Positions 33,189 through 37,403 of a DNA stretch of 64,000 nt are shown in pieces (position 1 is the first letter of the stretch; each line of letters begins with the position of its first letter). The position numbers and the translations under genes are program-made. The notes below the pieces were generated by a model that did not search any database, had not been told where the DNA came from, and saw only the letters and a list, made by a program, of their open reading frames with translations. The stretch spans positions 62,001 through 126,000 of the forward strand of contig NEED01000001.1 of assembly GCA_002110465.1 (NCBI GenBank), given 5' to 3'. This DNA is from an unicellular cyanobacterium SU2. GTDB taxonomy: Bacteria; Cyanobacteriota; Cyanobacteriia; Cyanobacteriales; Microcystaceae.

Positions 33189-33720
33189 GATTGTTGTTTT
33201 GTTATTGTGTATTGTATCTTAAGTTAAGAACAATTAAATTTTCGGTAATCTTCGTAAAGTAGTTAACTAAACTAATAAGTACGAGTAACAATTGAGAGTT
33301 TTAACGACAAGCTAATTTTTCTATATAGTGGACAGTATCAATTTTTATTTAATTCTTTGTTTTAGAACAGAAAATTAAAATTTCTCAGGAAAATGGTATA
33401 AAATGCTACACTATATTTTGTTATATATTTCTTTTCATAATCCCTCCTATCAGGTTGGTAATCTTAGTATTGTTCTCCATATCTTGAGAAATTGAAGAGT
33501 AAAGCGATGGTCTTTCCGCCATATCTAGTTAAGGGAAAAATTGTCCAACAAAAGTTCCATCAATGATCAGTATTCTAAACGCTTTGCTCTATAATAAACC
33601 ATGTTTGGCAAAAACCTTAAGATTTTCTTAATCTTATTAATTCAAGTCAATTCCTGAAAATTTCCAATGGCTTAAGATCACTTCGCTAAGTGATACAAAT
33701 TACTATAAGAACTTGAAAGC
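33189..33720. other. 532-bp intergenic region with one hairpin
   Basis: No convincing ORF is seen between the SepF-like gene and mrnC. The only clear structure is the hairpin ATCACTT-CGCT-AAGTGAT at 33677-33694, 27 nt beyond the mrnC stop. It may end or protect the mrnC transcript, although no T-run follows it. The rest is AT-rich. Confidence 0.4.
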
Positions 33721-34188
33721 TTAAGCTAAATTTAATTTTTCAAGTAACTGATTTAAACGTTGCGGATTTTGTAGATAGAGATAACCAATTAAGGTTTCGA
33801 GACTCGTCGCTTGTTGATAAAGTTCTGGTGATAAACGTCGAGGTTTTCCTGTGGCGGCATTCCTTCCCCGACGAACGATTTCTTTTTCAGATTCAGTTAA
33901 ATAAGGATTAATCCTTGCCAAAAACGCCGCTTGACTTTCGGCTCGCACTAACGAGACCACTTGATTATGATAATCAGCTAACCGTCGAGGGGGAAAGACA
34001 TAATAAGTCCGAACATAAAGCTCATAAACCGCATCCCCTAAATAAGCTAAAAAGCCAGGGGATAATTGCTTTATCATCCCCAATGGTTGACTTTTGCTAC
34101 CAACGGCTTCAAAAGTGACTCCATCATGGGCTTGTTTAATCTCATGGGGGAGGGTAGGCTGAGTTTCATCAAAATTGGGTAAATTCAC
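33721..34188 (-). CDS. mrnC: Mini-ribonuclease 3
   Basis: The frame starts with GTG at 34188 (155 residues); an ATG at 34077 would remove 37 poorly conserved residues. The RNase III catalytic fold without a dsRNA-binding domain is evident: LAYLGDAVYELYVRTYYV holds the catalytic Asp, VRAESQAAFLARI and VRRGRNAATGKPRR are typical of MrnC, and LETLIGYLYLQNPQRLNQLL supplies the second acidic site. In Bacillus MrnC matures 23S rRNA. It is followed on the same strand by nothing nearby and preceded by the STAS gene. Confidence 0.9.
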   Translation of the reverse strand: MNLPNFDETQPTLPHEIKQAHDGVTFEAVGSKSQPLGMIKQLSPGFLAYLGDAVYELYVRTYYVFPPRRLADYHNQVVSLVRAESQAAFLARINPYLTESEKEIVRRGRNAATGKPRRLSPELYQQATSLETLIGYLYLQNPQRLNQLLEKLNLA

Positions 34189-34252
34189 AACCTTAACTTG
34201 ATTTAGGGTTCTCTCAAAACAGTAACAATGTCTACTTTTCGTTGCCAGTTAA

Positions 34253-34651
34253 CTACTTTGAGAGATTATTGATAGCATCTTCGACTGAACTTTGCAAAGA
34301 CAAGAATTTTTCGAGACGAACTAGCTTAACAGTTTGAGTTACTCTAGGATTAGTAACAATTTGTAAGCTACCTTGATTAGTTTGTGCTTTTTTGACCAGT
34401 TGAACTAAAGCTCCAAGACCAGAGCTATCGATAAAGTCTATTTGAGACAATACCAAAATGACGTTAGCCGGTCCTTCATCGATATAGTTACCAATTACCT
34501 TACGAAAAGTAGGTTCAGAAAAGGCGTCTAACAGGCCAGTCAGCCGAAAAATTTGGTAGCTTTTTTGAACATCGCGAGTTCCTCTTAAACTCACGGTCAG
34601 GGTCAGTTGCTCAGGAATGGCTTCCTCCTTCAAGTCGATAAAAGTTGGCAA
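34253..34651 (-). CDS. STAS domain anti-sigma factor antagonist-like protein
   Basis: The protein has 132 residues. The STAS core contains VILVLSQIDFIDSSGLGALV, with the phosphorylatable Ser of SpoIIAA-like proteins in the DSSGLG motif, and QIFRLTGLLDAFSEPTFRKV before it. Such proteins act in partner-switching with serine kinases and PP2C phosphatases. No ATG is available near the N-terminus. The longest frame starts with TTG at 34651, so the start is uncertain. The gene runs divergently from the aromatic leader and DAHP synthase. Confidence 0.82.
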   Translation of the reverse strand: MPTFIDLKEEAIPEQLTLTVSLRGTRDVQKSYQIFRLTGLLDAFSEPTFRKVIGNYIDEGPANVILVLSQIDFIDSSGLGALVQLVKKAQTNQGSLQIVTNPRVTQTVKLVRLEKFLSLQSSVEDAINNLSK

Positions 34652-34954
34652 TTTAATGGTACAGTATAGCGTAGTGAAACAGAGAAAGTTAACTTCCTTA
34701 AGGATTTGAACAGATTAAACGATAATTTCGTCACGAGTCCTTACCAATACTTGACAATCGTTAAATAGGTCTGTTAAGTTTAATTTATTAGTAAAAATAA
34801 TAATTTTGTAGAAAAAGCTCTTCTTTTAGACAGTCACTATCTAGATCCTCAAGTTATTAATCCCATCCAACTTAGGGGTAGATAGGTTAATTAGTCTCGG
34901 TAAGGAATCAATTGGAGTTCACATAGCTATTACCGAATTATTTAAGCAAGCAAC
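34652..34954. other. Upstream region of the aro leader
   Basis: This gap between the divergent STAS gene and the leader peptide must contain the promoter for the leader. TTGACA at 34751-34756 is a good -35 box, followed after 17 nt by the weak -10 box TTAAGT (34774-34779). I see nothing else that can be named. Confidence 0.35.
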
Positions 34955-35026
34955 ATGATTACGTCTCAGACTTGGTTTTACAGCTTTTATTTTACCTGGC
35001 AACTACGGAGGTTCTGGGTGAATTAA
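34955..35026 (+). CDS. Aromatic-rich leader peptide of the DAHP synthase attenuator
   Basis: A 23-codon ORF begins with ATG at 34955 and ends with TAA at 35024-35026. The peptide contains WFYSFYFTW (residues 7-15) and FW (20-21), so 9 of 23 residues are aromatic: three Trp, four Phe and two Tyr. It ends 30 nt before an intrinsic terminator that itself precedes DAHP synthase, the first enzyme of aromatic amino acid synthesis. This is the layout of a classical ribosome-mediated attenuator, in which scarcity of charged Trp/Phe/Tyr tRNA stalls the ribosome. No strong ribosome binding site is seen. Confidence 0.82.
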   Translation: MITSQTWFYSFYFTWQLRRFWVN

Positions 35027-35063
35027 GTTAGGTTGTTTTTTACGTTTATCGAATTCCCGGAAC
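35011..35063 (+). promoter_or_regulatory. Antiterminator pairing of the aro attenuator
   Basis: GTTCTGGG (35011-35018), which overlaps leader codons 19-22, can pair over eight positions, one of them G-U, with CCCGGAAC (35056-35063), the left arm of the terminator. A ribosome stalled at the early aromatic codons would leave this segment free, so the antiterminator would form and transcription continue. A ribosome that reaches the stop codon would cover it. Upstream, CTCAGA (34965-34970) could pair with TCTGGG (35013-35018) as the protector when no ribosome is present. Confidence 0.7.
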
Positions 35064-35088
35064 ACTGATACAAGGTTCCGGGTTTTTT
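35056..35088 (+). terminator. Intrinsic terminator of the aro attenuator
   Basis: CCCGGAAC (35056-35063) and GTTCCGGG (35075-35082) form a perfect 8-bp GC-rich stem around an 11-nt loop, followed by six T residues (35083-35088). It lies 34 nt before the DAHP synthase start and after the leader peptide, so it cannot be the end of another gene on this strand. It is the terminator half of the attenuator. Confidence 0.9.
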
Positions 35089-35121
35089 AATGTTTATCTA
35101 TCGTTAAAGGAAATTCCGACC

Positions 35122-35967
35122 ATGTTCAATGCCAAACTCGCCTTAAAATCCTATCCTGAAGCCATAAACACCGTATCTTTAACCGATCCCGTAACCTTCG
35201 GAGGTCAAGAAATTGTTATTATTGGTGGTCCTTGTACGGTCGAAAGTTTAGAACAAATGGACACGGTTGCCTCTCAACTGAGAAATGCACCTGTTCAAGG
35301 GTTGCGGGGAGGGGCATTTAAACCCAGAACCTCTCCCTATTCGTTTCAAGGACTTGGACTCGAAGGACTGAAAATTCTCTTTGAGATCAAACAACGCTAT
35401 CAAATTCCTATCGTTACCGAAGTAATGTCAACAGATCAAATAGAGTTGGTAGCTACCTATGGGGATATGTTACAAGTGGGTAGTCGGAATATGCAAAACT
35501 TCGAGTTACTTAAAGCCCTAGGAAAAGTAAATAAGCCCATCCTCCTCAAACGTGGTTTAGCAGCTACCCTTGAAGAGTTTATTTTTGCAGCAGAATATAT
35601 CTTAAGTGAAGGAAATTCCCAGGTCGTATTATGTGAACGGGGAATTCGTAGTTTTGATAGTTATACTCGTAATGTCCTAGACCTAGGGGCAGTGGTTGCC
35701 CTTAAACAACTGACTTGTTTACCTGTTATTGTTGATCCTTCCCATGCTGCAGGAAGAAGAGAATTAATTGAACCTTTGGCAAAGGCTGCGATCGCAGCAG
35801 GGGCTGATGGTTTAATGATTGAATGCCACCCCCACCCAGAAAAATCGGTTTCTGATGCTCAGCAAGCACTTTCTCTTGAAGAAATGGTTAATTTGGTCTA
35901 TAGTCTAGAGCCTATTGCTAGAGCCGTTGGACGGTCTATTCCCCAACCTATGCCGGTATCAGTTTAG
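35122..35967 (+). CDS. 3-Deoxy-7-phosphoheptulonate (DAHP) synthase, type I-beta core
   Basis: The protein has 281 residues. It carries the type I-beta catalytic core: IVIIGGPCTVES (metal Cys), LRGGAFKPRTSPYSFQG (PEP and E4P binding), QVGSRNMQNF, VLLCERGIRSFD-type block VVLCERGIRSFD, VIVDPSHAAGRR and LMIECHPHPEKSVSDAQQ. It condenses phosphoenolpyruvate with erythrose 4-phosphate at the entry of the shikimate pathway. Only about 20 residues come before the barrel, so the N-terminal regulatory domain of some homologues is missing. An AAAGGA ribosome binding site lies at 35106-35111. Control by the upstream attenuator would compensate for missing feedback inhibition. Confidence 0.95.
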   Translation: MFNAKLALKSYPEAINTVSLTDPVTFGGQEIVIIGGPCTVESLEQMDTVASQLRNAPVQGLRGGAFKPRTSPYSFQGLGLEGLKILFEIKQRYQIPIVTEVMSTDQIELVATYGDMLQVGSRNMQNFELLKALGKVNKPILLKRGLAATLEEFIFAAEYILSEGNSQVVLCERGIRSFDSYTRNVLDLGAVVALKQLTCLPVIVDPSHAAGRRELIEPLAKAAIAAGADGLMIECHPHPEKSVSDAQQALSLEEMVNLVYSLEPIARAVGRSIPQPMPVSV

Positions 35968-35979
35968 TTCCACTGAAAA

Positions 35980-36765
35980 TTATCTGAGGACTGGTTTGTA
36001 ACTCAACACTCGAACAACAGTCCCTTCTTTGGGTAAATCTTGAAATTTAATCAGCAGTTTATTGTCATTAATCTGACGAATATTCATATCTTTGACTAAC
36101 TCTAAAAAGCTATCCACCGAAGATAAATCACAAGCGTCTTTATCTGCTGCTTCTGTCAAGTAATGAGTAGGAATCATTACCTTGGGTTTGAGAACTTCCA
36201 TCGCCTGTTTTCCTTCATCAGGCCGATAGGCTTTCGGTCCTCCTCCCACAGGAATCATGGCAATATCAGGACTGCCTAATAAGATTTTTTGTTCAATACC
36301 AATGGGGGCGGCGGCCCCTCCTAAATGGACAATCCGCAGTCCTCCTTGAGTCCAACGCCAAGCGACATTGGTGCCAAATCGTCTACCCCCTTTGCGATCG
36401 TGGTCAATACCCACTCCTTGAATTCTTAATCCCTTAATTTCATAAACCCCAGGTTCATACAAAACTTTGGGATTTCCAGGTAGATTTTCCGCTGCTCCTT
36501 CGTCCCACATTTGACTGCTAATAATTACTAAATCTGCTTCTACTTTAGGCAGTCGATAGCCAGCGGTACAGCCAATTGTCCGAAAGGGATTGGCTAAAAT
36601 TCTCAATCCCCCTCCTGTATATAGAAAGGAAGTATGTCCTAGATACTGCACCATTAACGAACCGTTACTCTGGGCTGAGGTCGGTTGAAAGCGAGAAGCT
36701 AGGGGAATTCCAGTGGCTGCGATGGCACTGGCACCAACATAGCGGATTAACTGTCGCCTTTTCAT
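35980..36765 (-). CDS. Tat-exported metallo-beta-lactamase fold hydrolase
   Basis: The protein has 261 residues. The N-terminus MKRRQLIRYVGASAIAATGI is a twin-arginine signal with cleavage probably near TSAQS (about residue 32). The body matches UlaG-like MBL proteins (MVQYLGHTSFLYTGGGLRIL, IVHLGGAAAPIG, MIPVGGGPKAYRPDEG, VMIPTHYLT). The full HxHxDH motif is not visible: the block reads SSQMWDEG, so key metal ligands are altered and enzyme activity is uncertain. It ends 12 nt from the convergent DAHP synthase gene. Confidence 0.78.
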   Translation of the reverse strand: MKRRQLIRYVGASAIAATGIPLASRFQPTSAQSNGSLMVQYLGHTSFLYTGGGLRILANPFRTIGCTAGYRLPKVEADLVIISSQMWDEGAAENLPGNPKVLYEPGVYEIKGLRIQGVGIDHDRKGGRRFGTNVAWRWTQGGLRIVHLGGAAAPIGIEQKILLGSPDIAMIPVGGGPKAYRPDEGKQAMEVLKPKVMIPTHYLTEAADKDACDLSSVDSFLELVKDMNIRQINDNKLLIKFQDLPKEGTVVRVLSYKPVLR

Positions 36766-36854: not shown

Positions 36855-36899
36855 TCACCGATCTTAAGGAACGGTGATTCCTAAGCCTCACAACTTAGG
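36855..36899 (-). mobile_element. Right-end hairpins of an IS200/IS605-type element
   Basis: TCACCG-ATCTTAAGGAA-CGGTGA (36855-36877) is followed by CCTAAG-CCTCACAA-CTTAGG (36880-36899). Two short hairpins just beyond the tnpB stop codon are typical of the right end of IS200/IS605 elements, where they are bound by the TnpA transposase; the same region usually yields the guide RNA for TnpB. Confidence 0.6.
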
Positions 36900-37148
36900 T
36901 TTCTGCTTCAATGCAGTTGCCTTGCGAGATTTACTCTCTTCGGGTCTTACACTCGCTCCACAGACTGACACCCCAAAGGGGTTCGGCAGTCGCTCATAGG
37001 GGAAACCCCCAAGACGGCGCTGCCTCACCGCAAGCCCTGCGGCCAAAATATTTTGACTGGCGTTTAGATCTCGGTCGTGGTTAGTTGCACATTTAGGACA
37101 TTCCCATTCACGAATATTTAACGGTAATTTGTCGATTATGTGACCACA
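36888..37148 (-). pseudogene. C-terminal remnant of TnpB (IS605 OrfB)
   Basis: The readable part starts with NCGHIIDKLPLNIREWECPK and continues CATNHDRDLNASQNILAAG, the C-terminal zinc ribbon and the last catalytic Asp block (DRDLNAS) of TnpB. The first cysteine pair is broken: one Cys of the usual CxxC is replaced at the breakpoint. The rest of tnpB, with the RuvC core, is gone. At about 37140 the sequence changes to IS630 coding sequence on the other strand, so the loss came with that rearrangement. Confidence 0.8.
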
Positions 37149-37403
37149 GTTATTCTTGATCAAGCTTCTATTCATACCAGTGATATTTTTCTGGCTAAAT
37201 TGGAGGAATGGGAAAGGAAAAAATTAAAATTATTTTGGTTGCCAACTTACTCTCCGAAGCTTAACTTAATTGAAATCCTCTGGAAATTTATTAAGTATGA
37301 ATGGATTGAAGTTGATGCTTACTATAGCTGGAAAAATTTACTTAATTATTTAAGAAAAGTGCTGGACAATTTTGGTCGAGAATATGCAATTAATTTTGTT
37401 TAG
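37140..37403 (+). pseudogene. C-terminal remnant of an IS630-type DDE transposase
   Basis: The fragment has TTVILDQASIHTSDIFLAKL with the second catalytic Asp, and LFWLPTYSPKLNLIEILWKF with the third acidic residue (Glu) of the DDE triad. It covers only the last ~85 residues of a transposase of this family. The N-terminal half is missing at the junction with the TnpB tail. The sequence after it (37404-37494) is AT-rich and may hold the old right end of the element, but I could not define inverted repeats. Confidence 0.82.

Follow-up and report, generated by a model that had tools for sequence, protein, structure and literature searches.

A putative aromatic leader peptide and tandem attenuator in front of the short DAHP synthase gene of cyanobacteria

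The DAHP synthase gene and its leader

The window, i.e. the whole stretch of 64,000 nucleotides analysed from the unicellular cyanobacterium SU2, carries on its forward strand a gene for 3-deoxy-7-phosphoheptulonate (DAHP) synthase at 35122..35967, preceded by a Shine-Dalgarno-like AAAGGA at 35106..35111. The product of 281 aa consists of the catalytic domain only: in the domain search it matched PF00793, with a minor NeuB match and without PF18152, and both NCBIfam models, NF006421 and TIGR01361, were over their cut-offs. The same genome encodes a second DAHP synthase with 50% identity to the window copy over residues 21-272. This paralogue carries in front the ferredoxin-like domain PF18152, which may carry feedback control; the two paralogues searched for it, L002 and L017, both had it.

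The divergent neighbours on the minus strand are, by eye, a 132-aa ORF resembling a STAS-domain anti-sigma-factor antagonist (34253-34651) and a 155-aa ORF resembling mini-ribonuclease III (33721-34188), while the ORFs at 36888-37175 and 37140-37403 look like transposase fragments, namely a zinc ribbon of TnpB type and a piece resembling IS630. The Rfam scan of positions 33500-36500 (E up to 1) gave as its sole match a sub-threshold fluoride riboswitch elsewhere in the region (36161-36214, minus strand, 18.6 bits vs 34, inside the ORF 35980-36765), which was taken as chance, and that of five relatives (E up to 0.1) gave only a sub-threshold isrG. A T-box or another Rfam family was rejected, since no match in the window or the five relatives was above the gathering score.

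The leader lies in front of the gene on the forward strand. The short ORF MITSQTWFYSFYFTWQLRRFWVN (34955..35026) has 23 codons, nine of which specify aromatic residues (3 Trp, 4 Phe and 2 Tyr); codons 7-15, WFYSFYFTW (34973..34999), form the putative stall site, as suggested by the sequence and by ribosome-masked folding. An intrinsic terminator (35056-35088), whose pairs covary in relatives, stands between the ORF and the gene. Its left arm CCCGGAAC (region 3, 35056..35063) makes 8 perfect pairs with GTTCCGGG (35075-35082), which together with the T6 run at 35083-35088 constitutes region 4 (35075..35088). Region 2, GTTCTGGG (35011..35018), is situated inside the ORF, mimics the right terminator arm and can pair with 35056-35063 over 8 pairs, one of them G-U, so that region 3 is also the antiterminator partner. 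A protector (1:2) hairpin is predicted at 34987..35026. The original prediction had described the 23-codon ORF, the 8-bp terminator and the competing segment, and its observation was exact, every named feature being found at its named position. The simple terminator scan of the window listed no terminator at the leader because it allows loops of 3-8 nt and the loop of this stem is 11 nt.

Conservation, tandem units and covariation

In the first orthologue set (91 loci, identity at least 58%, upstream region at least 250 nt) an aromatic leader, defined by at least five W/F/Y within 10 codons, was found in 80 upstream regions and two or more in 62, the values for dinucleotide-shuffled upstreams being 16.7% and 1.5%, respectively. 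In a class-wide draw the short DAHP synthase orthologue was found in 142 of 388 genomes (E up to 1e-100). An aromatic leader was present upstream in all 142 of these loci and at least two such ORFs in 129, some of the ORFs being incidental. The comparison with relatives, proposed in the original prediction as a check, spoke for it: close and distant relatives alike have kept the leader with its aromatic codons, and the terminator as well.

In most relatives two units stand in tandem; the window element corresponds to the second of them, and its genus has lost the first. In the commonest layout the first unit, L1, ends about 250 nt and the second, L2, about 95 nt before the gene; MFATNSYFYFWYGQVRPE and MTLFSNWYYGFYFWPRRSSG are examples of their leaders. 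The L1 leader is of the type YFYFWxxVHLE and its antiterminator has about 11 pairs: the last codons hold GTTCRCC, the partner of which, GGYGAAC, overlaps the terminator ACCGCAG...CTGCGGT. In L2 the right terminator arm recurs as AGTTCYGGGT in the closing part of the ORF. After 16 unclassified rows, four without terminator and four duplicates had been dropped, 60 L1 and 63 L2 units were retained.

Two covariance models were then made, R1 with 60 L1 units and R2 with 46 L2 units, the builders partly overlapping the units searched. R1 matched 138 of the 142 loci (100/100 and 38/42), the exceptions being L001 (the window), its congener L004, L232 and L238. R2 matched 136 (99/100 and 37/42), several of them weakly or partially, and gave no match at L138, L215, L237, L241, L242 and L246. 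Both models matched in 132 loci and at least one of them in all 142. The window terminator unit, itself among the builders of R2, matched this model at G000:C1:96990-97090 with an E value of 1.4e-9. When a remaining first unit was sought in the window genus, no R1 match was obtained in L001, L004, L003 or G000; thus three members of this genus (L001, L003, L004) are without L1, and the window unit is an L2.

The leaders retain their aromatic content, while the order of residues is variable, with Y runs for example in L076, L081 and L084. For Phe and Tyr either synonym occurs (TTT 808, TTC 129, TAC 306, TAT 199; TGG 359). Such make-up bears on the possibility that the leader is an arrest peptide, for which TnaC is the precedent: free Trp, Phe or Tyr would be sensed by the nascent peptide within the ribosomal tunnel, and stalling would be independent of uncharged tRNA. 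The cores GFYFW (L2) and YFYFW (L1) recur in many families, as would suit an arrest peptide, but the varying order and the use of both synonyms argue against it, and we regard this explanation as unlikely.

In the L1 set (A1) the antiterminator pairing was kept in 93.0% of 660 cells (84.7% when shuffled), with both-side changes in 7 of 11 pairs (59 cells) and a covariation score of 0.332 vs 0.178 in shuffled and at most 0.095 in slid controls. These values point to strong compensatory change, as exemplified by the pairings GGTTCACCTGG/CCAGGTGAACC, GTTCGCCCGGA/TCCGGGCGAAC and GGTTAACTTAGA/TCTAAGTTAACC. The L1 terminator was paired in 98.3% of the cells and 3 of its 7 pairs had changed on both sides. 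For L2 a chosen subset (A2) of 46 of the 63 units was used, from which 17 layout variants were left out (L010, L014, L068, L069, L072 twice, L073, L074, L075, L077, L078, L080, L082, L086, L087, L091 and L099). In this subset the terminator was paired in 96.1% of the cells, 5 of 9 pairs had changed on both sides and the score was 0.283 vs 0.133 shuffled. The L2 antiterminator was paired in 88.3% of the cells vs at most 60.0% slid; its score of 0.163 vs 0.149 shuffled and its 7 both-side cells, a number reached in 68 of 500 shuffles, suggest modest covariation. Covarying arms, which the original prediction had also proposed to look for, were accordingly found in the terminators of both units and in the L1 antiterminator, and only weakly in that of L2. 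With ties counted as half, a unit's own region 3 was a better partner for its region 2 than those of other units in 81% (52 L1 units) and 67% (58 L2 units) of the comparisons.

As to gene specificity, neither R1 nor R2 matched any of 16 paralogous DAHP synthase loci. When the paralogue upstreams were taken from full-length starts, an aromatic ORF was present in 2 of 15 (L028, L029; L031 skipped), both unlike L1 and L2. For trpE and leuA, 30 loci each were taken from the 37 and 39 genomes, respectively, with a match. No convincing leader was seen in the trpE upstreams (1/29 by Trp and 1/29 by W/F/Y, the ORF lying over the match; L253 skipped) or in those of leuA (2/30 by Leu and 6/30 by L/I/V), and none of these weak ORFs at scattered positions had, by eye, the L1 or L2 layout.

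Fifteen R1 or R2 matches away from the listed orthologues were read, which covers the strong ones and part of the weaker ones; the remaining R1 matches have E values from about 1e-4 upwards. Each strong match is either such a leader close to the end of a contig or what looks like a relic: L309-L312 carry leaders of this kind about 900 nt or less from a contig end. In L308 and L318, from genomes without a listed orthologue, a decayed L1 leader with its antiterminator was seen, apparently a relic after gene loss. The matches L313-L317 and L319-L322 were judged on reading to be chance or tRNA-adjacent terminators.

Upstream of the window leader a promoter-like site (34751..34779, forward strand) may be recognized, with TTGACA at 34751-34756, a spacer of 17 nt and TTAAGT at 34774-34779 as a weak -10 (3/6, by eye), from which transcription would start near 34787. 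The survey of such signals covered 132 of the 142 loci, the other 10 having less than 100 nt before the first leader. In 120 loci vs 9 of 132 shuffled, TTGAC was found in the 130 nt preceding the first leader, at a median distance of 65.5 nt from the start codon, and therefore transcripts should include the leaders. The two-hexamer promoter score was only somewhat above the control, reaching at least 9/12 in 47 loci vs 24 of 132 shuffled. A start downstream of 35026 had been named as a finding that would speak against the original prediction; the TTGAC data place the start most likely upstream. Words resembling a Shine-Dalgarno sequence precede 102 of the DAHP synthase genes, 8 first leaders and 13 last leaders in the 142 loci. 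Since they are rare before the leaders, efficient initiation there is not evident, and leader translation seems to begin in the absence of such a word.

Ribosome-masked folding and the proposed switch

In order to represent the translating ribosome, a footprint of 18 nt before the A-site codon and 15 nt from its first base, chosen by us, was masked, and the antiterminator was counted as formed when at least five pairs were present in the fold before region 4 is made. With the units sorted roughly into L1 and L2 (at least one L1, that of L007, was sorted as L2), a stall in the middle of the aromatic cluster allowed the antiterminator in 66/66 L1 and 52/62 L2 units. When the ribosome was placed at the stop codon, the antiterminator formed in 0/66 and 2/62 and the terminator in 66/66 and 58/62 units, respectively. 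As a rule region 2 occupies the last part of the leader ORF in both L1 and L2, and therefore a ribosome at the stop codon would cover it and a stall at the aromatic codons would free it. In the full-length folds of the stalled units the antiterminator persisted in 55/66 L1 and 7/62 L2, and in the absence of a ribosome it formed in 64/66 L1 and 43/62 L2 units.

The enterobacterial trpL and pheL attenuators have a leader rich in the product amino acid and four segments, with a protector hairpin and mutually exclusive terminator and antiterminator. The product-rich leader peptide and the mutually exclusive structures are shared by the window element. The L1 units differ from trpL and pheL in that their model antiterminator is formed without a ribosome in the 64 of 66 units given above, so that lack of translation would turn L1 on.

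The calculated stabilities also distinguish the units. In L1 the antiterminator was stabler than the terminator in 60/60 units (medians -24.5 and -15.4 kcal/mol), while L2 was balanced, the antiterminator being stabler in 32/61 (medians -17.3 and -16.8 kcal/mol). In the window unit the antiterminator, with -11.2 vs -15.5 kcal/mol for the terminator, is the weaker, and therefore antitermination there would have to be kinetic. By these calculations L1 could work at equilibrium, and the window unit would need its antiterminator to be formed first and held as the polymerase passes; the weaker antiterminator is, as modelled, the main weakness of the attenuator model for the window itself.

The masked folds of the window agree in part with the claim that a stall at codons 7-15 frees 35011-35018. 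Region 2 was released and made its 8 pairs when F8, Y9, F11, Y12 or F13 occupied the A site, but no antiterminator was obtained when W7 or W15 did. An antiterminator that excludes the terminator, and whose 5' part a ribosome at the stop codon masks, was found in the relatives; in the folds of the window it is no more than transient. Without a ribosome, region 2 was hidden in the MFE structure by the protector hairpin between 34991-35004 (left arm) and 35010-35022 (right arm), and in the congeners L003 and L004 the antiterminator was likewise absent from the folds without a ribosome.

In the full-length MFE folds of the window the terminator was present in all 11 ribosome states tried, which is what would be seen if the stem at 35056-35088 were an ordinary terminator or a constitutive filter and the aromatic ORF incidental. 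However, the leader accompanies the orthologue in every one of the 142 loci, the antiterminators overlap the terminators and show covariation, strongly in L1, and the 16 paralogue loci are devoid of R1 and R2 matches. Taken with these observations, the explanation by an ordinary terminator is very improbable. The element is most probably a ribosome-mediated transcription attenuator by which the short DAHP synthase is controlled according to how codons for Trp, Phe and Tyr are translated. The attenuator interpretation put forward in the original prediction is supported, and more widely than it had envisaged.

The analysis shows the sequence features, their conservation and covariation, the gene specificity and the geometry. 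Leader translation, stalling, read-through and the signal itself, which we infer, would combine as follows. Transcription would begin upstream of the leader and a ribosome would trail RNA polymerase through the leader ORF. When aromatic aminoacyl-tRNAs are plentiful, this ribosome would reach the stop codon and cover region 2 (35011-35018), regions 3 and 4 would pair and transcription would terminate at 35083-35088. A stall at the aromatic codons would instead leave region 2 free to pair with region 3 ahead of the synthesis of region 4, so that the polymerase would read into the DAHP synthase gene. In the window genus the predicted protector hairpin would hide region 2 in the absence of a ribosome, so the default would be off. 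In the relatives a further upstream unit, L1, would as a rule act by the same logic, and since L1 and L2 stand in a row, both terminators would have to be passed.

Action of the terminated leader RNA or peptide in trans, as reported for the trp leader peptide of S. meliloti (PMC7298713), would be compatible with this attenuator. The conservation of leader composition and of the RNA would agree with such a role, but it is accounted for by the codons and by the position of region 2 in the ORF, and we consider an additional action in trans rather unlikely.

Known systems, descent and significance

The Salmonella mgtCBR leader responds to signals other than those of DAHP synthase leaders. It resembles the L1/L2 tandem in that a single leader combines a pair of short ORFs with a pair of attenuators (PMC3641672). 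The gene concerned is however another one, outside amino acid biosynthesis. Closer in function is the aroR-aroF attenuator of Corynebacterium glutamicum, reportedly described by Neshat et al. in 2014. According to PMC11802643 and PMC4046766, an aromatic leader peptide (Phe-Tyr-Phe) stands upstream of a DAHP synthase gene, as in the window, and ribosome stalling raises transcription under Phe limitation; on this basis a DAHP synthase leader attenuator is already known outside the cyanobacteria. By its description in PMC11802643, the effective signal of the FYF stretch is Phe and not Tyr. The cyanobacterial element differs from aroR-aroF in its Trp, Phe and Tyr codons, in its usually two tandem units and in belonging to another phylum. 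A candidate of Acholeplasma, the aroF uORFC-13-1, likewise has a uORF with at least one Phe codon, an apparent terminator and DAHP synthase downstream; it is set apart from the window element by its description in PMC8632094 as having 24 representatives from Acholeplasma and environmental sequences.

The original prediction knew of no leader-peptide attenuator for the shikimate entry step in cyanobacteria, and none was found in the open-licence literature among the matches listed. A survey of 2016 regards attenuation in cyanobacteria as being without reliable data (PMC4833913), and a term search of the main text of a 2010 survey of premature terminators did not return the term.

The distribution of the leader bears on its age. 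In the gene tree, the rows of which exclude the window's own protein, 20 of the 28 rows labelled Melainabacteria (named contigs) have the leader; those without it are L071, L083, L089, L096, L097, L098, L100 and L103, of which L071 is just under the threshold. In this midpoint-rooted tree with long branches 45 cyanobacterial rows group (98/95) among the Melainabacteria rows, and five rows titled Cyanobacteria are placed with Melainabacteria; rooted in this way, the tree does not separate descent from transfer. In the phylum draw, made with strict filters, R1 was found at 1e-6 in 33 of 339 genomes, 32 of them within the class of the window, and wide presence outside the class was not seen in these genomes. 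The sole out-of-class match, G493, was on reading a chance terminator.

Among the Acidobacteria (Blastocatellia), L104 and L106 have an aromatic ORF, MHARxFTFSGYWYW, with a terminator, of possible kinship to L1 and L2, and the stem GAACCGCAG...CTGCGGTTT in L102 resembles that of L1.

We tentatively propose, while holding it for somewhat less than probable, that the two-stage attenuator is ancestral to the cyanobacterial phylum and predates the split of Cyanobacteriia and Obscuribacterales (Melainabacteria), that its working implies, in cyanobacteria, a lead ribosome close enough behind RNA polymerase to decide termination, and that the isoenzyme without the N-terminal domain is attenuated and its paralogue is not.

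For cyanobacteria, coupling of transcription and translation is put forward as no more than a suggestion in two recent papers. The switch described here would need such coupling, and its occurrence at 142/142 sampled loci of one gene makes coupling directly testable in laboratory strains. It would constitute a control point on the entry of the shikimate pathway, from which both the aromatic amino acids and engineered aromatic compounds derive. The comparison with the paralogue further suggests that the control of this step differs in kind between its two isoenzymes.
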